From the NCBI GenBank assembly GCA_025024175.1, contig QCXZ01000064.1:56627325-56691324 (forward strand): a DNA stretch of 64,000 nt, written 5' to 3'. The position numbers and the translations under genes are program-made. How positions within the stretch are numbered: the first letter of the stretch is position 1; the number at the start of each line of letters is the position of its first letter. Positions 1-64,000 of this stretch are shown in pieces. Origin of the DNA: Rhyzopertha dominica (Eukaryota; Arthropoda; Insecta; Coleoptera; Bostrichidae). The notes beneath the pieces were generated by a model that saw only the letters and a program-made list of their open reading frames with translations, had not been told where the DNA came from and made no database searches.

Positions 1-600
1 ATTGGATGCATGCAATAAAGAGCCTATTTAATGTGGTTTCTTTCTACACACTTTTTTAGCCCTTATGCTGATGAACTCTGTTTCAAAATTGTATTATGCC
101 CTTCATATGTAAATAACTATTAATGTTCCCTCAGATTTATTTACTGATACCAACTTGAAAAATAACAAATTCTGTTTCATAAATGGCTCTATTACTAAAC
201 GCAATTTGCATTTCGTAATGACTTTATTAAGAAGGCAAACTAGAAACAAATAAATTAAACACACATAGGACCCAATATTTACAGTAACAATGAGGTAAAG
301 ATATAAAACATTATACACTAAGATGGACAAATACATCTACTCATATATTTATTTGAAATACTGTAATAGGCATTCGCAATTAAATATTTATCAAACATTG
401 TATAATTTAAGAAAACCTCTTTTAAAAACCACACGGGCACTGACAGTAGTGAATAAAATAGTTGTTAATTAAAAAAAGTTGAATTTTGATCTTTTAAAAT
501 AAATACATGAATAATTCAATTTCCCTTTGATTCGACCACTAACTACCACAAGTAGTTACAATTTTTTTTGCTCTAATGTGATTTGACACATAATTTACAG
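1..600 (+). other. Brd8: Brd8 upstream intron (3' part)
   Basis: AT-rich sequence with no supportable coding exon. It ends in a splice acceptor (tttacag at 594-600) after a T-rich stretch near 560-570. In the Brd8 reading frame a TAA at 591-593 closes the frame just upstream, so coding must enter by splicing at 600/601. The intron splits a codon after its first base. Confidence 0.7.
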
Positions 601-2342
601 ATGCTGGAATTGAATCTCCAGCGACAGACTTGCTGGAAGATGCTGCTGATACCTTACCAAACCTCAAGATGGAAGACATTGAGAGTACAATTTTGTCTTC
701 TGATGAACCATTACCAGAGATAAAAAATGAAGAGGTTGAAGTGATCATCTCAGACCTTATTGAAAATGCCGATGACATAGTTAATGATCCCGAGCAGCAT
801 TTAAAATTAGACGATGATGACGACATCATTACCAATTTGGATAACGAGCTTAAAGAGCTTGGTGAAGATGATGGAGAGCAGAATTTTGAGCAACAGGAAG
901 AGGAAGCCGCACCTCCGCCTTCCCAGGTTGAGCCTCAACAACAACCGGCGCCTGTGGTTGAGAAGGAACCGCAAAAAATTGATCCATTTGAATTTGCAGA
1001 AGACGAACCAGAGGTGCTGCAGCCACCAAAGTCAAGCATGTCTTTGATAAAGCATCATATGCTGGTTAATGAAGAACAGCATCAGAATGTAGCAGAAAGG
1101 CATACATTGCAAGAGACTAATCTATTAATTGAAGAAAAGGAAATTAAAAAGGAAATGCCGGAAAGAAAAGATAGTTCTGAAGAGAAGAAAAGTGCAGTAA
1201 TGCCAGGTTCTGTTGAAATTGTGGAGGTAGTAGTTTTGGAGGAGGATGAAATCGAGAAACAGCTAAATAAATCTCAAATTGAAGATATTGTGCACTCTCG
1301 TAAACCTTCAGAACAGACTATGATAGAAGAAGAACAAAGTAAAACTGCCGACGTAGTCATCAAAGAGGAACCACAAGAAGACAATGAAAGCTTAACAGAA
1401 GCTACAGTCGTTAATGAAACAATGGAAGACAAAGAGATCAAAGAAGAACTCGATAATGCCAGGATTGANATAGATGAATCGGAAAACTCGAGACGAAACA
1501 CTTTTACTCCGGAATACTCTGAGGAATACTTTGATGATTTGAACATGTCCGTAACGAAACCCGAGAAGAGCGGTAAAGCAAAACGAGATTATTCACGAAC
1601 GAAAAAGAAAGAGGAGAAAGATTTTCACATACTTCTTGCCGTGGAAAAGGCCGTCAACGGACAACTGGAAGAAAATGAATTCGCAGAGGATTCATTTTCC
1701 GATAGGGAGTTTCGGGAAGCCGAAAAGAAATACGGAAGCCTGAGCAAACTGAGAAGTGAAACGGATCGATCCAACAGTCCCTGGACTGAAGACGAAGACC
1801 TAACCAACATGAGGAATAAAAGAAGGTATTCAACTCCGGCCACACCAACGGATTCGATTCCAAATTCTCCAGCTTCGAGTTCTGCTTACTGTGATGACGA
1901 GCGTGACAATCGCAGTTGGAAGAAGGCTGTTATGCTGGTTTACGGGCACCTGGCGGCCCATAAATACGCGTCACTCTTCTTAAAACCCATTACGGATGAG
2001 CAGGCTCCGGGTTATCATACCGTCGTGTATCGGCCGATGGATTTACAAACTATCAGGAAGAACATAGAAAGCGGGGCCATCAGGACGACAGCCGAGTTTC
2101 AGCGTGACGTTTTGCTCATGTTCACCAACGCTATAATGTACAACAAGACGAACGATCTCATTTATAATATGGCTGCGGAGATGCAGAAGGAAGCGATTCA
2201 ACACATCAAACAGTTTTTGCAGGCCCAGGGTCAAATGGATGGTCCTCTTAGGAGGGAGACGCGAACAAGTGAGCCTGGTGGCAAGAGGAAAAGGGAATCC
2301 GAATGTTTCAACAACAGGGCAAAGAAAAGGAAGGATGATTAG
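601..2342 (+). CDS. Brd8: Bromodomain-containing protein 8, terminal exon
   Basis: Last coding exon of Brd8, a chromatin reader and subunit of the NuA4/TIP60 histone acetyltransferase complex in the nucleus. The frame is open from the acceptor at 600; bases 601-602 complete a split codon and the first whole codon is at 603. There is no local ATG start: position 630 is an in-frame TTG (Leu), so the N-terminus lies in exons left of the window. The first two thirds are acidic, low complexity and Glu/Asp/Ser rich, with Gln/Pro tracts and Lys-containing IKEE/VKEE-like repeats that could be SUMO sites. The bromodomain spans about 1905-2220: WKKAVMLVYGHLAAHKYA (helix Z), the PMDLQTI turn in the ZA loop, and YNKTND with the acetyl-lysine-binding Asn. 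A Lys/Arg-rich tail, probably nuclear targeting, precedes TAG at 2340. One N at 1469 leaves one residue undefined. Identity rests on bromodomain plus C-terminal position; I am confident of the family. Confidence 0.92.
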
Positions 2343-2770: not shown

Positions 2771-3328
2771 CTTTCATAATTCATACTTGATCATTAATAT
2801 TAACGGGCTGTTCAGATTTTGTGTTAATAGATTGATACAGAGTCGACCCACCAGGGCACACTTTCAATGGATTATGGAAAAACTATACTTAGGGAAAAAT
2901 CCTAAAATTTGGTAGTAAGTTATTGATACTGGCGGACATCAGACAAAAAAATTTAAGGATGTGGTACTTCCTGTTATACCTGAAGTAGATGTCAACTTGT
3001 GAATTTCAAATGAAATAATAAGGTAAAGTTCTATAAAGGCAGGTTTTGCAGCCGTCATTCGATCCACCACAACCGCTAGAGAGAGAGAGAGAAGATAACA
3101 CTGAGTTGCTCTGATATGTTTGAAAATAGTCTTATTAGAAAACTGGTGATCGACATTTTCACGTAAGTAAGCTGGAGGCGGGTGACAACTACAGGCCTAC
3201 GGAGGCATTAAACATATTTTTTAATCAATTTTTGAGTTTAATTTCTTTGTTATTCCTAAAAAAACCTAAGACGAACAACTGCCTATCTGTCTTCATGGGG
3301 CAGGGGGTTTTCTAACTCGGATTTGCCC
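2771..3328. other. Intergenic, no gene seen
   Basis: AT-rich sequence with a short GA microsatellite at 3077-3094. No recognisable coding or mobile-element signal up to the target duplication of the next element. Confidence 0.5.
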
Positions 3329-15230: not shown

Positions 15231-16561
15231 CGAGGCATGTTTTTTAAGTAAGTACTGTTTTGGAATTAAAAAAAGACGTGCAAAGATATCGCAATAATTT
15301 TAACTTACATGAAAGCCTGTACCTTAGTCTACTTTTCTACATAATTTCCGTGAATATTGAGGCACTTGTCATAACGTGGCACCAGTTTTTGAATACCCTC
15401 CTCATAAAATTCTGCCGCCTGACTTGTTAACCACTGTATCACAAATGTTTCGACTTCGTTATCGTCTTGAAGACGCTGACCACCCAGGTGTTTCTTCAAG
15501 TGCAGGAACAAATGGTAGTCGCTGGGCGCCAGATCAGGGCTGTATGGAGGATGATCTAGAGTTTCCCATTTAAAAGATTTGATGAGATCTTTGTCCGATT
15601 AGCCACATGTGGACGGACATTGTCATGCAGCAAAACGATACCCTTACTCAACTTGCCACGTCTTTTGCTCTGGATTGCACGACGCAGATTGTTCAATGTC
15701 TTACAATAAGACGCTGCATTGATTGTCTCATTACGAGGCAGAAACTCCACTAGCAATACTCCTTTTCTGTCCCAAAAAAACTGTGCACATGATTTTCCGG
15801 GCAGAAATTGTTTGCTTAAACTTCACTTTTTTGGGTGATGATGAATGTCGCCATTCCATGGATTGTTGTTTCGATTCTGGTGTGACGTAGGCCACCCATA
15901 TTTCGTCACCAGTAACAATTTGGTCTAAAAAATCTTCACCTTCATTGTGGTACCGCTCAAGGAAAGTCAATGCACTGCCTAAACGTTGGGTTTTGTGCAA
16001 ATCCGTCAACATTTTCGGAACCCAACGTGAACACAATTTCCGGTAATTCAAGTTCTCGGTCACAATGCGATACAAAACACTACGAGAATATTGAGGAAAG
16101 CAGTCGCACAATGATGAAATCGTAAAGCGTCTGTTTTCTCTCACCTTTTCGTTCACTTTCTGCACCAAATCTTCATTAACGACCGAAGGACGCCCACTCC
16201 GTTCTTCATCATGCACATTTGTGCGGCCATCTTTAAATGCTCTCACCCATTTCCTTACCATTCCATCACTCATAATGTTTTATCCGTAAACTTCACAGAT
16301 CTCACTATGAATATCGATCGGTTTTACGCCTTTAGCACTAAGAAATCGTATAACAGCCCGTACTTCACAATCGGCGGGACTCACGATTGTCGGAGGCATC
16401 TTAAACAGTTAGTAAACAACGTATACAATGAAGAATCAAACTGTAATGGCGTCAGTGCGCAGACAAGAGATGTAAGTAACCAGCGCGCATGCGCGGAACG
16501 CCGACCGTAGCGCTGCGGCGGCGGAATCGCAAAACGGTACTTACTTAAAAAACATGCCTCG
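15231..16561 (-). mobile_element. Full-length mariner-family transposon
   Basis: A 1331-bp element flanked by TA at 15229-15230 and 16562-16563. The terminal inverted repeats are at least 28 bp and start CGAGGCATGTTTTTTAAGTA at both ends. The transposase gene is on the - strand. The termini are nearly identical but the gene is inactivated, so the copy may be cross-mobilisable but is not autonomous. Confidence 0.93.
15329..16399 (-). pseudogene. Mariner transposase, inactivated
   Basis: Cut-and-paste transposase with a DD34D triad. It starts at the ATG at 16399-16397 (MPPTIVSP) and carries an N-terminal helix-turn-helix region, then VRKWVRAFKDGR and the linker SGRPS. The catalytic signatures are TGDEIWV (first Asp), LLHDNVRPH (second Asp) and PYSPDLAPSDYHLF (third Asp). 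Three lesions are visible: an in-frame TAA shortly before MSDGMV (about 16277), a one-base gain in a T run at about 15776 after KIMCTVF, and a one-base loss at about 15590 after ANRTK. The remaining frame is otherwise well conserved, indicating fairly recent death. Length matches the family (about 345 codons). Confidence 0.92.
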
Positions 16562-17999: not shown

Positions 18000-19310
18000 T
18001 TTAATCGAAATATAGACCCATTCATGTATGTTACAGGAGTTTAGGGACTGTTATGGGAAGGTTTTCAAGGCATCCAACTAGCGGAGAGTTTTTATTAGCG
18101 TCCGTGCTAGTTCGGCTGCATTATTTTTGCTCTTCCTCGGACAAGCTGCTGTCTGAGATTGTATACAGCTTTAAGGCTTCCTTATTTATTGTTTTCTTGT
18201 CTTATGCGATTTCTGACCACTCTGTTTTCTTCAATTATGATAGCTTTCGCTATGATTCCCTCCAATGTTGTTCTCCACGTGTAGCACGGTCGTCCTATTT
18301 TGAGCTTGTTGCTGTTCATTTACCACGCTTTCTGTAGTACATGGTCTTCTTATCTCCTTTGAATATGCTCTAATATTTCTTTACATTTCTATTGTTTTTG
18401 TGATTGTCTTTGCCTCTAGGAGTTCTGGCGCCCCCCGAATTTCGGTTTCTTTGACAGCTTTGGCCAATAATTGCACGATATTTCTTTCTGCGTTTCTCAA
18501 GCTTATTCTGTTAGCTTTGGTAGCAGCCACAGTTTTGACTGTCATAATGTGATGTGTGGTAATTACCGATGTGTATATATTTTTTTGAGATGCTCCATTC
18601 CTGCTTGTGTTTCTCTACAAATTATAGTATAGCTTTTATAACTCTATGCGCGATTTTTGTCCTTTCTTTGACTGTTTCTCTGCGGTTGAGTTTGCTTATT
18701 ATGTAGGTTCCCAAATATTTTTTTCAACCTTATACTTCGGCTCCCTAGTTTGTATACGCTACCTGTCATTAACGTTTTCTATCATGACAGTTTGTTGTAG
18801 ATTATGGTTAACCAGTTTCCTACGTTATTTAAGAAAGTCGGCCAAATCTTTTTAATTCTCTGTTATTACCACCAGGTCATCCGCATATGTCAGTATAAAC
18901 GGAAGTTTTATTTTATTTCCTTGTCGGATATATATATTTTTTTTAGTTGTGCGATAGTTTTTTGAATGATGTCATCTAGGACAATTATAAATATTTTTAG
19001 TGACATGGGGAATCCTTGCTTTACTATTTTTTGTTTTACCGGCGTGGTTGTTTGGTCAAACCACTGTATTGTTGTATCTTCGTGTAGGCAGGCCTTCGTT
19101 ATCCTATTAAATAGGTAGTTGGGAACCTTATTCTTTGCCAGGATTTCTGGTAGAGATAGGAGATTTATCATATCGAATGCTTTCTTTCTTTTCTTTTCTT
19201 CTAGTACGCGCCTTATTGTGTAGGCACATGTGATCCTCCACTGATCTGTTCTTGACAAAGGCTGCTTGATGGTGTGGCATTTCCGGGATGTGATATATTA
19301 TATTTTATTA
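18000..19310 (-). pseudogene. Non-LTR retrotransposon (LINE) reverse transcriptase relic
   Basis: Reverse transcriptase of a LINE, read right to left. HQAAFVKNRSVEDHM (about 19230-19275) matches the RT block before motif A. After a frameshift come KKAFDMINL (motif A with catalytic Asp), a VKQGFPMSLKIF block corresponding to RQGxPLSP, and VLDDIIQ. The YADD catalytic box lies at 18876-18887. Further left the frame is heavily broken, but GRPCYTW (about 18290) resembles the C-terminal end of LINE ORF2. The 5' half is absent. The clade is uncertain. Confidence 0.7.
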
Positions 19311-42490: not shown

Positions 42491-42712
42491 CAGTGGCGTA
42501 GCCAGAAAATTAACTTGAGGGGGGGCGAAGCTCCAAAGCATAAGAAAGTTGAGTAAAAACACAAAAAAAGTCATGTACAATTAATGATTATAGGATTTTA
42601 ATTTGTTTGCAGGTAAATATATTTTTGAAAAAGTATTCTCACATTTGACCAGGAATTGAACCAGGAACTTTTAAATGCTAGTCAAATGCGCTATCACTGC
42701 ACCATCAAAGCC
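42491..42712 (-). repeat. tRNA-derived SINE-like element
   Basis: On the - strand, 42712-42645 reads like a degenerate tRNA. It has an A-box-like TGATAGCGCATTTGA, a B-box-like GGTTCAATTCC, and TTTGA/TCAAA acceptor-type pairing. The sequence then continues to a terminus reading CTGGCTACGCCACTG (+ strand CAGTGGCGTAGCCAG at 42491), which is also a hAT-type terminal motif. A related stretch (ACCATCAAAGCC.TATTCA) recurs at 43222-43275. It could be a SINE head fused to hAT debris; not a functional tRNA gene. Confidence 0.4.
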
Positions 42713-51005: not shown

Positions 51006-51664
51006 CAGCAGTTGCCAACTCTGGGCCCAATTTCCCATACATTTAGCTGATTAATTATGTGTGTACACCTAAAAATTGTCTTATTTACAAAATTGTAAAT
51101 ACAGTTAAATTTATAGGCAAGTGTATTTCACAATTTTCATCCAGAACTCATATTTGACCCCTGCAAATGAACTTCTCTAGCAAGTCCTTGTCAAATGGTT
51201 TCCAAGCTTAATCGATGCAATGTGCGTTTTGAAGCTATAACTTCAACATTCTTGTTGTTACGAATCGTTGTCTTAGGGCGGATATAGCTTTAATAAACTA
51301 TCTTGGTCAGGACGAGTCATAACACGATTTCTGCTTAGTTCAGTTCTTCTACCTTTTCCTATAAAAATTGTTCAACTAACTACTGTTATATGGAATCACA
51401 CCAGAATCTGTCATATATTCGGTGATAATTCTAACGTTTGTATCAAATTTCTAAATTCATATTACATTTTAACAATTAATGCAAAAAAACCTAAAAATCT
51501 ATCCAAACTCACGTTTATGAAAGTCAATTTATTTAATATAAGTTTTAGAAGTCCAGTAAAAGCATTACCAGCACGAATTAAAATCCGATGTGTTGTTAAA
51601 AATGCAATTAAATATATTTCAGTTTAAAAATGCATGTCTATGCTGTGCTGTCTACATCTCAACC

Positions 51665-51713
51665 AACTGCAGATAGTACTATTTCGCTGTCATTACAGCC
51701 CATCAGTGCAGTT
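51665..51713 (-). ncRNA. Inverted hammerhead copy with altered core
   Basis: The same motif on the - strand, with identical helices II and III and identical helix I. The core reads CTGATGG instead of CTGATGA: the base after G8 (A9, at + strand position 51700) is changed to G. This change is expected to impair cleavage strongly. It lies in the inverted arm of the 51627-52163 insertion. Confidence 0.75.
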
Positions 51714-51975
51714 TAGGTCTAGTGTAGACAACACGGCATAGAACTGGTTTTGCTTATATACCAAAGCAATGGTATGATGAAAGTAAGAATTTAGGATGGC
51801 TACAGGTCACTTCCTTTAGGAAGTCGTTCCCGTTAAGGCAGCTAGGTGGCTTTGTCATCATGTCAGTGTAATGCTGACAGATGGCATTGCCATCCTAAAT
51901 TCTTACTTTCATCATACCATTGCTTTGGTATATAAGCAAAACCAGTTCTATGCCGTGTTGTCTACACTAGACCTA

Positions 51976-52024
51976 AACTGCACTGATGAGCTGTAATGAC
52001 AGCGAAATAGTACTATCTGCAGTT
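51976..52024 (+). ncRNA. Type I hammerhead ribozyme, complete core
   Basis: Self-cleaving RNA motif. Helix I is AACTGCA (51976-51982) with TGCAGTT (52018-52024). The core is CTGATGA (51983-51989). Helix II is GCTGT-AATG-ACAGC (51990-52003), then GAAA (52004-52007). Helix III is ATAGT/ACTAT (52007-52016) with no loop, and C at 52017 is the cleavage nucleotide. All conserved core bases are present. RNA enters and leaves through helix I (type I). A loopless palindromic helix III would be unstable alone and favours cleavage as a dimer, as described for hammerheads of animal retrozymes and Penelope-like elements. Activity is inferred. Confidence 0.85.
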
Positions 52025-52899
52025 GGTTGAGATGTAGACAGCACAGCATAGACATGAATTTTTATGTATGTTGTGGGGGCCTGCTGTCCCCGTTAAGGCA
52101 GCTAGGTGGCTTTGTCATCATGTCAGTGTAATGCTGACAGNTGGCATTGCCATCCTAAATTCTTATATTTCAGTTTACTTAAATGAAGCTCAATTTAGTT
52201 AAAATACTAAGTAGTCGGTTAATTTTTGAGAGCAATGCACTGGCGTTCTAAGAAGGTTGGCTTGACACATAATGCTGAGGCATTTGCCATTCTGAGTTTT
52301 AATCATGTTTTTCCTGGGGAGTAAAAATTACTACAATTGTATCATTAACACCTATACATATGAACTTCTAGCTTAAATTTCTAGTGTGAAAAGTTTAAAT
52401 TGTACTAAAAGCGCATCGTTTAATGCATTAGTCTTTGACATATGTTAATTCTGAATTAGAAATCGAGCTCCTGTTAGCAGAACTTTTAATGTGAAATTTA
52501 TGTTCCTCTAGTACTTCGTATGATATCATTATACATTATGCGGATCACGGATCTTTATTCTCCCAAATAAAATGTATCAACTCATTTTTTGTTAAACGCG
52601 AGAGCGATGCAACTGAATGCGCCTCACCTAACCGAGTTCATCAATAACTGAATTAGTAATAAAGGGGCTTTGTATGATCAGTGTACATAGAAAACATATA
52701 TTGGGGTTTTATTTCACAGAAGATGTTTTAAGTCACTTTGCAGAAAATGCACGAAGATTATTCATCGAATAAATACTTCATTAATTGCTTAAGTACCTAT
52801 ATCTTATAAACGTTTATTATTTCCGTTTATGTTGAATTATACTCTACAGGATGTTCCTGCTTTGCCCCCCATAGACCAAAAGCTGGGTACGCCAATGGG

Positions 52900-56838: not shown

Positions 56839-59197
56839 CATGGGCGTACCCTGCTTTTTTTTGGTCTAGAAGTAATTAATAAAGTATTTATTCCATGAAT
56901 AATCTTCGTGGATTTTCTGCAAGGTGACTTAAAACATTTTATTTGGAAGAATAAAGATCCGTGATCCACATAATGTATAATGATATCATATCAAGTACCA
57001 AAGGAACATAAATTTCACTTCAAAAGTTCTACTAATAGGAGCACGATTTTTGAATCAGAATTAACACACATCAAGGACTAATGCATTAACCGTTGGGCTT
57101 TTAGTAGTTTCAACTTCTCACACCAGAAGCTTTAGAAATTTAAGATGGGGGTTTATATGTATAGGTGCTAAAGATACAATTGTAGTAATTTTTACTCGCC
57201 AGGGAAAGAGACTCGATGGATAACTAACATTATTAAAACTCAGAATGACAAATGCCTCAGCATTATGCGCCAAGCCAACCTTCTTAGATCGCCAGTGCAT
57301 AGCTCTCAAAAATTAACCGACTACTTAATATTTTAACCAAATGAAGCTTCATTTAAATAAACTGAAATATACTTAATTGCATTTTTAATAACACACCGGG
57401 TTTTAATTCGTGCTGATAATGCTTTAACTGGATTCATAAAACTTATATTAAATAAATTGACTTTTATAAATGTGAGTTCGGATGGATTTTCAGTTTTTTT
57501 TTTGTTTTTTCTGCATTAATTGTTAAAATGTAATGTGAATTTAGAAATTTGGTACAAAAGTTATATGACAGATTCTGATGTGATTTCATATAACAGTAGT
57601 TAGCAGTGGCGGCTCGTCCGGGTCGGCAGGGTCGGCACTGCCGACCCAGATTATTGATCGAAGAAATTATTTTTTTCGTATTTTTATGTATATTTTGTTT
57701 TATTATGTTCAAATATCTTGAAACAGTTGGAGCGTATTTTTTTACATTACCATCAAATTAATAATTAGCCAAAATCACATTTTCCGAGTTGTCCCGAAAA
57801 ATGTACGCTACTCGGCAACCGTGGCTGGGCCGTGTATGTGTTTGTCATTCAAGCCCGTGATCCAAGCGCTGGGTCGGCAGACCGCATCGTATAATATAAG
57901 GAATAGCATCGTTTTCCTATGAGCTTAACAAAGACGCAACCCTGCGCGCATATCAAGACTGCAATGCTTGGGTCCGGCAGACAGCATAAAGCATTAAAAC
58001 GGACTTCATTTATTTCAATTATTTCAAGTTTTTTTTTTAATCAACCAATTATAGTTCTGTTTTCTACTGAGTATTACAAATTATCTGATTAACACCCTTT
58101 ACATGCTTACAGTTTTTTTTATAATCATAATTTAATTTTACGTATATATGTTTTTATTGAAGTTAATAAAGGAGGCCCGGCATTCATAATCATCGGATTC
58201 TGAAAATTAATTTTGACANGTACATTGAACAAGAATTATATATATAGTTCAATACTGAAATCACGAAAAACTACTCGNATGCGAAATTTTTCATTTTTCC
58301 AAGATTATTGTAAGAGCTATCCTCTTAAATAAACAGTTTTAAGCAGATACCTTCAAACATTTAACAGAATTAATTAAATACATGTTATAAATTTAGTCAA
58401 TCTGAAATCATTGAAGAATTTCACACAAAAAGAACATAAAATAAGTAAGCGCCAATACCAATATAATCGCTTAATGCTGTCTGCCGGACTTCCGAATGCA
58501 TCTTCGGATTGGGCTCGACATATATCGGCTTCTCCTCTCCGGTGCGAAATTATGAAGCTAGTTGCCAGATTAGGCTATTTGTTACCAAATAAACTATCTT
58601 TTTAACTTGCGGCGATATGAAAATTTACAGAAGTAGCAAGTAATAAACAACAACTACGAGTATATACAAAATTATTTACTAATTTATAAATAAATAATAT
58701 TGACCAACTAGAGTGGACCAAAGTTTTTACTGTTGACCCAATAGAATTTGTCACGAGCCGCCACTGGTAGTTAGTTAAACAATCTTTATAGGAAAATGTA
58801 GAAGAGCTGAACTAAGCAGAAATCGTGTTATGACTCATCTTGACCAAGACAGTCTTTTAAAGCTATATCCGGCTTAAGAAAACGATACGTAACAACAAGA
58901 ATGTTGCAGTTACAGCTTCAAAACGCACGTGGCATCGATTAAGCTTGGAAACCATTTGACAACGACTTATTAGAGAAGGTCATTTGCAAGGGTCAAATAT
59001 GAATTGTGGATAAAAATTGTGAAATACACTTGCCTATAAATTTTACTGTATTTACAATTTTGTAAATAAGACAATTTTTAGGTGTACACACATAATTAAC
59101 CAGCTAAATGTATATGGGAAATTGGAAGGGCCCAGAGTTGGCAACCCAGGTGAAGGGGGGGCAGTTGCCCCCCCCACCCCCCTTCGGTACGCACATG
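56839..59197 (+). mobile_element. Copy 2 of the CATGGGCGTACC-ended element
   Basis: Ends read inward CATGGGCGTACC (left) and CATGTGCGTACC (right), with an exact 8-bp duplication GCCTTGAT (56831-56838 and 59198-59205). Without the nested hAT element (57604-58766 plus 8 bp) it is about 1.19 kb and non-coding. A C/G-rich tract (about 59153-59183) lies just inside the right end. The 8-bp duplication suggests hAT mobilisation. It is paired with the inverted copy at 51011-52897 across a 3.9-kb spacer. Confidence 0.85.
57604..58766. mobile_element. hAT-type non-autonomous element nested in copy 2
   Basis: 1163 bp with inverted ends CAGTGGCGGCTCGT/CACGAGCCGCCACTG-type and an exact 8-bp duplication GTAGTTAG (57596-57603 and 58767-58774). 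Just inside the left end GGTCGGCA-type repeats occur, echoed at about 57870 and 57970. No transposase domain is readable. Two Ns at 58219 and 58278. The inverted paralogous element provides an empty site. Confidence 0.92.
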
Positions 59198-61289: not shown

Positions 61290-61870
61290 ATTTTTGCTTC
61301 CTCTCACGATGCCCCCCTGCTTTTTGCGAGGGTTCGTATGTTGTCATTCTCGATGATGTGTTGTTTGCCTTTTTCTACGTGTGTCCATACGCTACATCTC
61401 GCTGGTGTTGCTGTATGCGACATTGTATGCTGCGTACAGTTTGCCCGACTTTTCCGCACTGATACTGGAGCTGGTAGATTCCCTTGGTGTTTAGTTCCGT
61501 ATTTTGTCCTTGACCGATGGTAGAATATGTCAAATCTTCTGCACAGCGTTGTATCTTACGCTTCTCTTTTTCAGCAGTACGTGTTCTTCTGTCTGTCTGT
61601 CTGTTACCCCGGAAACGTATGGTAGGTAGGCATATCCTTCGAGTTGTAGTTTCTGCTGTCCTTTGTATGTTTCTTCTTGTTCTTAGAACCTCCTTCGGCT
61701 TATAACCAAATCTTTTCCAAAGGCACTCCTGACATATTGAATCTCCTCGGTTCTGCTTTCTGCGTCAGTAGTCTTTATATTTGTTATGAAGCTAAATATA
61801 ATGTTCTCTGGTCAGTTTTTGACCAGGCACAATACTCTTCCAGAATTTTTATCTGTTGAGGTATTACCTC
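61290..61870 (-). pseudogene. Penelope-like element, RT end and GIY-YIG domain
   Basis: Read leftward. LPYVSGVTDR (about 61600) is the linker block between RT thumb and endonuclease in Penelope/Poseidon elements. Then come a VRYNAVQKI block, SVKDK, and GIYQLQYQCGKVGQTVRSIQ (about 61405-61475), covering GIY and a deleted YIG motif, followed by CRIQQHQRDVAYGHT. Stops and shifts are frequent. The RT catalytic region is missing. It is a different family from the next copy, whose linker and endonuclease differ. A (CTGT)n run lies at about 61588-61603. Confidence 0.72.
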
Positions 61871-61979
61871 AAAATTATTCGATTTATGCGCTATTCTTCG
61901 ACATTTAACTCAATTGCTTTTTTAAGATAATATATTCTCGGAAAGATCGCTGTTTCTTGAAAACACTGACAAAAAATTA

Positions 61980-64000
61980 TAAGTCTGACGTTTCGATTAC
62001 ACCTGTAATCTTTGTCAAAGGCGAAGAACCTCAAAATTTGCCTGACACAAGTTCAAACAAAATTTTTAAAGTAAATAAACAATTTACCAAGGAAGCGAGA
62101 TGTCATAGAAACAACGTGCCAACCTGATAGAAAAGAACCTAACGACGAGAAAGGAACTACCTACCTACTAGATATACACGAACTACTTCATAAAAGATAA
62201 CTACAAAATAGCTTTCCAAATTTCAACTAACTCATAATTTCCACAATCCCTATTAAAATTATTAGCATTATGTGTTTAATCAAATATGAGTGTTCAGCTA
62301 CGGAAGATTTATCTATCTGTTGCAGCATACGTGTTCTTTCAAACGCGTACCTACTTTTCTTTTAATTTGACCTGTGTAACACTTGCCGCAAGAACAAGTA
62401 ATTTTGTAAACCCCTTCACTCTCTAAATGTACTTTGTCTTTAGTAGAATTTAAAATTTTATCTAAATTATTATATGTACTATCAACAACTAAAATATCGT
62501 GTTTTCTAAGCATCCTCATTAATTTTTCCGAAAGGCCCTGTACAAAAGGCAAACTCAACTTCAATTTACTTTGCCCTGGCTGAGAATTTACTTGATTTGG
62601 TTGAGCACTTTTATTAAAAACTGACCAAATATTCTTATTGCTATAACCATTTCTCACTAGCGCTGATTTAAGATGATATATTTCGTTTTGTAAAGAACTT
62701 TCGTCTGATATCCTTTGTGCTCTAACAAATAACGTTCTTATAAGACTATTCTTTTGAGAGGGAGGCTCGTGAGATGAGGCATGTAAATATCTGTCTGTGT
62801 GTGTTGGTTTTCTGTAAACTTTGTGTCCTAACTGCCCAGTGTTTGTTCTGTAAATTTGGACATCCAAGAAAGGTAAACTACCATTGCTTTCTAATTCCAT
62901 AGTAAATTTTATGTCGGGATTTTGACTGTTCAAATGATTTAGTAACCTACCCAGCTCTTCTATACCGTGGGGCCAAATAACAAAAGTGTCATCTACGTAC
63001 CTATACCAATATTTTGGTTTAAACTGAAAACTGTTTATCGCTACCTGTTCAAAATTTTCCATAAACTAATTGGTTAGTACAGGACTTAGAGGTGAACCCA
63101 TTGCACAACCTCATTTTTGTTCATAAAAATTTTCGTTCCATAAGAAATAAGGATCTGGCTATCGTGTCACCTAGGGGATCGCTATTAAGCTTAGATTTGA
63201 TAATATCGATGGTTTCAGGGATGGGTACTTTCTTAAATAAAGAAACCACGTCAAAACTAACTAAAATATCACCTTCTGAGATACTTAAACCTTTTATAAT
63301 ATCAATAAAGTCTGAAGAATTTTTGATGAAACTACTGGTTTTTCCTACTAGTATGGGTCTCAATGGGACATTAGTTATGTGGATTTTAGGCAAACTATAC
63401 AATTTAGGTACCTTGCAATCGGAAACAGTTAAAAGAGACTTCTCTTCATTCGAAAGACTTGAGCTTTTGATAAGATCATTAGTAATTTTGGAAATTTTTG
63501 ATGTAGGACCTCGGGATAATTTTTGATATGTTTCCTCATCTAACAACTCCCTAACTTTATTCTCATAAGCTGTTCTACCTAAAATGACTGTGACTGAACC
63601 TTTATCTGCTCTAGTAACTATAATGAACTTATCTGTATTCAAATCCTTAAGAGCCTTCATTTCCTCAGATGTACATGCATTTCTAATAGCGTGGCATACA
63701 TCCATCCTAATCTTATCCGCTTGATCTTTCGGAAGCAGTCTTATACTAGATTCCATCGATGACATTATCTCCACTTTTGGAATGGTCCGTGGCGTTACAG
63801 CAAAGTTCATCCCCTTCGCTAAAATATTTATATCAGCATCTGAGACACTCTTTTTTGACAGATTTATCACAGTGTTGTTGGTTTTAACCACGTTATATGA
63901 TTTGAACTTATTGTGTTTAATGGTATTGAACTTCTCAAATTTACGAATGTTTTGTCCTTGACCTTAGTAAAGTGTTGTTTGTATACTTTTTGTGTGAACT
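61980..64000 (-). mobile_element. Penelope-like retroelement, continues beyond window
   Basis: A nearly complete 3' two thirds of a Penelope-like element. RT occupies 62600-63960, GIY-YIG endonuclease 62250-62430, and an untranslated tail ends near 61980. In the tail (- strand) an ATTAC-AGGT-GTAAT hairpin runs into CGAAACGTC (61987-62014), the feature shared with the isolated tails at 35.1, 45.6 and 46.9 kb. The 5' end and any pLTR lie past 64000. Confidence 0.85.
62250..63955 (-). pseudogene. Penelope-like RT/GIY-YIG protein, inactivated
   Basis: Single protein joining a telomerase-related reverse transcriptase to a GIY-YIG nuclease. The readable order is an N-terminal region (from about 63955), DKFIIVTRADKGSVTVIL (about 63565-63620), PKLYSLPKIH (RT block), ILVSFDVVSLFKKVPIP (motif A, about 63200-63250), GCAMGSPLSPVLTN (motif B), and WYRYVDDTFVIW with catalytic YVDD at 62988-62999. 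LPFLDVQIYR, YRKPTHTDRYLH, a linker, and GVYKITCSCGKCYTGQ-KRKVGTRLKEH (GIY and YIG variants, 62407 downward) follow. Lesions: a frameshift near 63145, two in-frame stops around GCAMGSP (about 63062-63100), and a shift after LKEHV (about 62330). Otherwise well preserved, so this is a relatively young copy. Confidence 0.88.

Follow-up and report, generated by a model that had tools for sequence, protein, structure and literature searches.

Metazoan retrozymes have been described by Cervera and de la Pena (2020, PMC7229834), who proposed Penelope-like elements (PLEs) as their movers; as worded in the discussion of that paper, the proposal rests on shared features and co-occurrence. In the available text of PMC11167929, a PLE protein that is predicted to form a dimer cuts and extends both strands in vitro, starting inside the RNA, with two adjacent sites. 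No difference in start site between the strands is reported in vitro, so that by itself this work lends no support to a strict rule of one site per strand (PMC11167929). Rotifer Penelope inserts head-to-head with an optional tail on one inverted pLTR, for which self-priming has been proposed in the part of PMC3846280 available to us.

Here we compare these systems with an insertion found in a stretch of 64,000 nucleotides from Rhyzopertha dominica, the whole of which is called the window below. Elsewhere the window carries a BRD8-like bromodomain gene (594-2342, plus strand) with an ORF closest to beetle proteins (best named among 120 listed: Ignelater luminosus, 55%), a tRNA-Ala gene (42640-42712, minus strand), and a fragment at 15731-16279 (minus strand) that has an HTH_32 match and was read by eye as a mariner-like transposase.

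Structure of the insertion at 51627-52163

Unit positions (u) are counted from the base after the predicted hammerhead cleavage site, u1 being window position 52018, and A and B denote the two recurrent start sites described below. The insertion comprises the following features, together with an empty site elsewhere in the window.

51613-51626, no strand: left target-site duplication, TATATTTCAGTTTA, an exact repeat; single copy in a diverged empty paralog
51627-51800, minus strand: left arm, a cDNA from site A with its outer end at ~u45, inverted, running back to u224
51672-51706, minus strand: the hammerhead core again, in inverted form, with a single core substitution (CTGATGG in place of CTGATGA); Rfam aligns more weakly here, at 51651-51723
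51798-52163, plus strand: right arm, a cDNA from site B with its outer end at ~u238-240, running back to u133
51966-52038, plus strand: hammerhead ribozyme of type I, with its core at 51983-52017 and cleavage predicted at 52017/52018 (cleavage and helices assigned by eye)
52164-52177, no strand: right target-site duplication, an exact repeat
57358-57371, minus strand: empty homologous target site with the 14-mer once, in a diverged paralog of the host sequence

The initial annotation of this locus had described a non-coding, tandem insertion of 537 bp that has a 260-bp period and is flanked by an exact target duplication of 14 bp. The insertion and its duplication were borne out in full, and no stop-to-stop frame of at least 110 aa (the shortest listed) lies inside 51627-52163, which agrees with the non-coding character. 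The 260-nt spacing is also real, as an 80-nt direct repeat recurs at that distance (51826-51905 and 52086-52165, 98%). However, it is not the unit of the family: genomic arrays repeat every ~352 nt, with at most ~5 units per array, and the window has the shorter, deleted form because its right arm lost most of u57-160 of the 352-nt unit, with a scar at ~52073-52086. The plain tandem reading had to be abandoned, since the left part is an inverted copy of the right (over 176 nt, 51625-51800 is 99% complementary to 51889-52064) and the insertion is thus head-to-head. To its left, an AT-rich frame at 51277-51627 (plus strand) gave a Pfam match to GP120 of 19.3 bits, against a cut-off of 27, which we take as chance.

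A second retrozyme insertion (locus L036, 1387-1925) was found at the homologous position of a host-repeat copy that has diverged. Its 14-bp duplication is identical to that of the window insertion (51613-52177) and its inner junctions differ. The two are either independent hits on one site or the outcome of later conversion.

A type I hammerhead in many genomic places

The hammerhead at 51966-52038 aligns end to end with Rfam RF02275 (28.5 bits, E 6.8e-5 in an 801-base search). The complete hammerhead that had been proposed at 51976-52024 is upheld, with a complete core, type I topology and a predicted cleavage site. Among the outcomes named beforehand as speaking against a retrozyme were a covariance score below threshold and an absence of further copies. 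The first is indeed the case: 28.5 bits lies under the RF02275 gathering score of 52, so that a strict threshold misses the hammerhead, and a tRNA is the sole Rfam match at gathering score in the whole window. The second is not, as the 45-mer core, with at most 3 mismatches, was found at 3278 places in the 479-Mb genome and its reversed control at 0. The core 35-mer, likewise with at most 3 mismatches, occurs at 2 places in the window, with 0 expected from shuffles. We regard the hammerhead as real because its core is complete and because of this genomic count; a chance hammerhead is ruled out by the same count, its reversed control and the shuffle expectation. The core pattern had no match in viral and prokaryotic sequence collections. 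Low variation of the core (0.005 vs 0.030 elsewhere) was set aside as a signal, since the loci had been chosen by that core.

Two outer ends are paired in head-to-head insertions

We mapped 59 loci holding 62 insertions, 36 of the loci from BLAST places (window included) and 23 from hammerhead places, the latter drawn from the first 30 core places listed, all on one contig (C1). Loci repeating an already counted insertion were left out, and the sample is biased toward copies with a good hammerhead region. Those 30 core places fall in 25 insertions, which gives an estimate of roughly 2,700 insertions for the genome.

Forty of the 62 insertions are divergent, with a minus arm on the left, a plus arm on the right and the RNA 3' ends outward. 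In 38 of these 40, site A (~u47) at one outer end is paired with site B (~u243) at the other, and neither A/A nor B/B pairs occur; within the divergent set, A ends lie at u44-52 and B ends at u238-252. The script assigned 23 A/B and 14 B/A arrangements, and the 38 include L036, in which site A was called by script and site B by eye beside a small end deletion. The two that break the pairing (L040 and L075) have one unclassified end each and no duplication was found in them. Were the two ends independent and of equal frequency, the chance of 38 mixed pairs would be ~4e-12 (by arithmetic). Single-orientation insertions by script number 22/62 (14 ending at A, 7 at B, 1 unclassified), and in one counted among them, L073, a short minus piece from site B was seen by eye.

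Head-to-head arms could also be produced by self-priming, in which a single cDNA, or an antisense RNA (proposed in 2013 for rotifer Penelope), would fold back on itself and serve as its own template. This is how inverted arms with palindromes at the junctions of PLEs have been interpreted (PMC3846280, as far as its text was available), and one of our insertions, L012, turns at nearly the same unit position. Such a snap-back would be expected to leave identical outer ends and to turn at a single position, whereas the outer ends differ in 38/40 divergent insertions and the inner ends lie within 10 nt of each other in 1/40 and within 25 nt in 6/40. The unequal outer ends and unrelated turn positions led us to reject a fold-back palindrome, and we consider self-priming in any form very improbable here.

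Priming of the two target strands at separate RNA sites, followed by joining of the two cDNAs, is the reading that we prefer. At the inner joint, the arms overlap by at least 2 nt in 32/40 insertions, against 33% of 300 simulated joints (p 1e-4, on 36 hand-copied values). A target duplication of at least 10 nt was found in 42/62 insertions and none that long in the other 20; its length is 13 nt in 14 cases, 14 nt in 13, 12 nt in five, 15 nt in four, 10 nt in three, and 11, 17 and 20 nt in one each, i.e. 13 or 14 nt in 27/42. The duplication overlaps the element end by a mean of 2.9 nt at either site, and for this reason priming is probably helped by short pairing.

Start sites and the RNA template

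The unit taken from L009 has a GC content of 0.44, and its predicted circle folds at -138.9 kcal/mol (z -9.2). In predicted circles, site A is the apical loop of a hairpin at u36-53, and site B falls in u233-248, where the reference unit has its longest unpaired stretch. Across complete units from 17 insertions, the predicted unpaired probability is 0.94-1.00 at u43-46 and 0.63-0.94 at u237-247.

Inner ends are scattered along the unit, without clustering at the cleavage junction (5/104, against 3.5 expected if uniform). The junction is passed by 51/54 A-started and 35/46 B-started cDNAs, a count in which the choice of loci by a match to the hammerhead region favours long A-started arms. At least one unit plus 10 nt is covered by 24 A-started and 29 B-started cDNAs. 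A cut linear monomer is ruled out as template by the passage of the junction, and from the scattered inner ends together with that passage the template is read as either a circle or an uncut multimer.

Passage beyond the junction fits these two equally well, and two-strand priming on uncut multimeric transcripts would leave cleavage and circularisation without a part in insertion. Such transcripts would account for L022, where the units of one arm differ by ~3% among themselves in their match to the other arm, and agree with the report that PLE insertion in vitro is independent of hammerhead activity, hammerhead mutants having inserted normally (PMC11167929, in its available text). On the other side, the arms and units of L010, L011, L012 and L013 are identical or nearly so, as expected of one small circle, for which a homogeneous array transcript would be equivalent, and abundant circles are described for elements of this kind from other animals in the accessible part of PMC7229834. 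On balance we find the multimer an unlikely template and favour the circle. The two arms of an insertion are nearer each other than the median of other insertions in 22/28 cases (binomial 0.0037, Wilcoxon 1.8e-5). In the other 6/28 they are no closer, and a single template molecule is thus not established for all insertions.

A Penelope-like element of the same genome shows the same insertion architecture

A PLE relic, a member of a large family, begins 9.7 kb from the retrozyme insertion.

61923-63963, minus strand: PLE relic of the family proposed as mobiliser; matches insect PLE proteins and continues beyond the region; its start was obtained by arithmetic from the alpha end of L079

A search of the same genome with this relic scored 150 of 11,634 candidates. 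Among the listed copies (the window's own aside), protein identity is 88-92%, some frames exceed 800 aa and several copies form divergent pairs. In L090, a 726-aa frame contains an RVT_1 domain and, by eye, a GIY-YIG-like stretch; PF01541 was present in 2 among 120 listed homologues of the relic. Near the PLE copy of L090 there is a diverged retrozyme fragment (2979-3157, ~80-88% identical to the unit), likewise of divergent architecture, which suggests an older retrozyme subfamily. The window also contains, at 61375-61764 (minus strand), a frame of a second, older PLE family, in which a GIY-YIG-like stretch was seen by eye. This second relic was rejected as a candidate, its other listed copies being 33-79% identical and many of them carrying stops.

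The PLE insertions pair one end, alpha (L085 2738-2750), on one side with another, beta (2772-2780), on the other side. The pairing holds in 7/7, 6/6 and 10/10 insertions of three sets, 23/23 together. The 7/7 set consists of the L079-L090 loci with both ends visible, the other 5 being uncounted, and the left end of L082 is that of a pair in the 6/6 set; the 10/10 set was read from BLAST coordinates alone, with a query that stops at beta, so that read-through would look alike. In 13 PLE cases that could be read, the duplication is 13 nt in eight, 14 nt in two, 15 nt in two and 11 nt in one, or 13 or 14 nt in 10/13.

Sequence similarity of the PLE starts to sites A and B was not significant (best alignment 20; shuffles 15.6, sd 3.3). 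When a linear piece of L085 was folded, neither PLE start came out as clearly single-stranded (unpaired 0.52-0.57 at alpha, and from 0.9 down to 0.01 at beta). A conserved hammerhead-like motif, GTCT TTGACAAA GATTAC AGGT GTAATC GAAACGTC AGAC, is present at 61983-62022 (minus strand) and in all 12/12 loci L079-L090; its core departs from CTGATGA in having U for C3 and A for G8 (by eye) and an extra A. Rfam hammerhead models gave no match in the PLE locus L085 up to E 5.

The two elements have a target motif in common. With A (or alpha) set to the left, both favour AA at -3,-2 and TT at +2,+3 outside the duplication (TSD), the edges of which were drawn by one longest-match rule in both. The full pattern AAN-TSD-NTT occurs at 18/42 retrozyme sites, 8/13 PLE sites and 295/20,386 (1.4%) other flank positions. 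When retrozyme sites were scored by the PLE motif, their mean percentile among their own flanks was 0.93 (Wilcoxon 8e-9), with 25/42 sites at 0.95 or above and 0/42 below 0.5. Motif and duplication length were compared in the retrozyme and the PLE alone and might be common to other retroelements.

The insertion architecture points to Penelope-type machinery for the retrozyme. The earlier suggestion of mobilisation by Penelope-like enzymes has thereby gained support at the level of the genome, through the head-to-head form, the paired starts, the duplication length and the motif. The mover might instead be a LINE. L1 elements are known to undergo twin priming with 5' inversions, and the window has a reverse-transcriptase fragment at 18908-19297 with a weak RVT_1 match. 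A PLE is the better fit to two fixed starts (one on each strand) that are paired as in PLEs, and to the PLE target motif; we judge a LINE mover improbable.

Proposed mechanism and comparison with known systems

Our main reading, to which we give a probability of roughly 0.8, is that the element is a non-autonomous metazoan non-LTR retrozyme, mobilised in trans by a PLE, in which each target strand primes reverse transcription at a different fixed site of a circular or multimeric RNA. The hammerhead would cut the transcripts, which would then, as in the known family, be closed into circles. The PLE enzyme would cut both target strands ~13-14 bp apart at a palindromic AAN/NTT site, a dimer possibly holding both start sites, and the target 3' ends would prime reverse transcription, one at the apical loop of site A and the other at the single-stranded stretch of site B. 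Copying back along the RNA, both cDNAs would frequently cross the cleavage junction and frequently extend beyond a single unit. Their free ends would join by a few nucleotides of homology, so that the arms lie head-to-head and the RNA 3' ends face outward.

A broader version, to which we give even odds, is that PLE insertion is obligatorily two-handed: a dimer would cut a palindrome and use two starts on one self-cleaved circle, making one cDNA per target strand. The retrozyme would then be an RNA parasite whose two starts dock on the dimer, and the PLE 'tail' would correspond to the distance between starts.

The type I core, the 352-nt unit with GC below 50%, the multicopy tandem and non-coding organisation and the duplication of more than 4 bp are all found here. 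These agree with the metazoan non-LTR retrozymes of PMC7229834, which, in its available text, have type I hammerheads, low-GC non-coding units of 170-400 nt in tandem copies and duplications of more than 4 bp; their RNA is highly self-paired, as the fold of ours is predicted to be. We therefore favour a new retrozyme family of this known metazoan kind, as the initial annotation had considered possible; its many copies support this, and the family was not found in the literature searched. The head-to-head insertions with two paired starts set it apart from those retrozymes, no mention of them having been found in the text of PMC7229834 that was available. Nor did paired starts in retrozymes appear in the literature searched, which consisted of titles and abstract openings from a collection with few closed-access papers. 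Plant LTR retrozymes, as summarised in the accessible part of PMC7229834, are likewise non-autonomous hammerhead elements with circular RNA (which we infer for ours), and differ in their type III hammerheads, LTRs, 4-bp duplications and proposed Gypsy machinery.

The retrozyme lacks an ORF with reverse transcriptase and GIY-YIG endonuclease, by which a PLE is recognised, and has only the insertion architecture in common with PLEs. It further differs in its more complete hammerhead and in starts ~156 nt apart, where those of this genome's PLE are separated by ~34 nt. The likeness lies in the PLE features of head-to-head inverted ends, a 'tail' on one inverted pLTR, internal starts, and cutting and extension of both strands in vitro (PMC11167929 and PMC3846280, in their available parts). 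Because the retrozyme and the PLE of one genome are alike in architecture, paired starts, duplication length and motif, the question of the mover becomes directly testable. With paired starts, the inverted repeats of PLEs and the tail on one side of them can also be read simply; these had earlier been put down to self-priming in the accessible text of PMC3846280.
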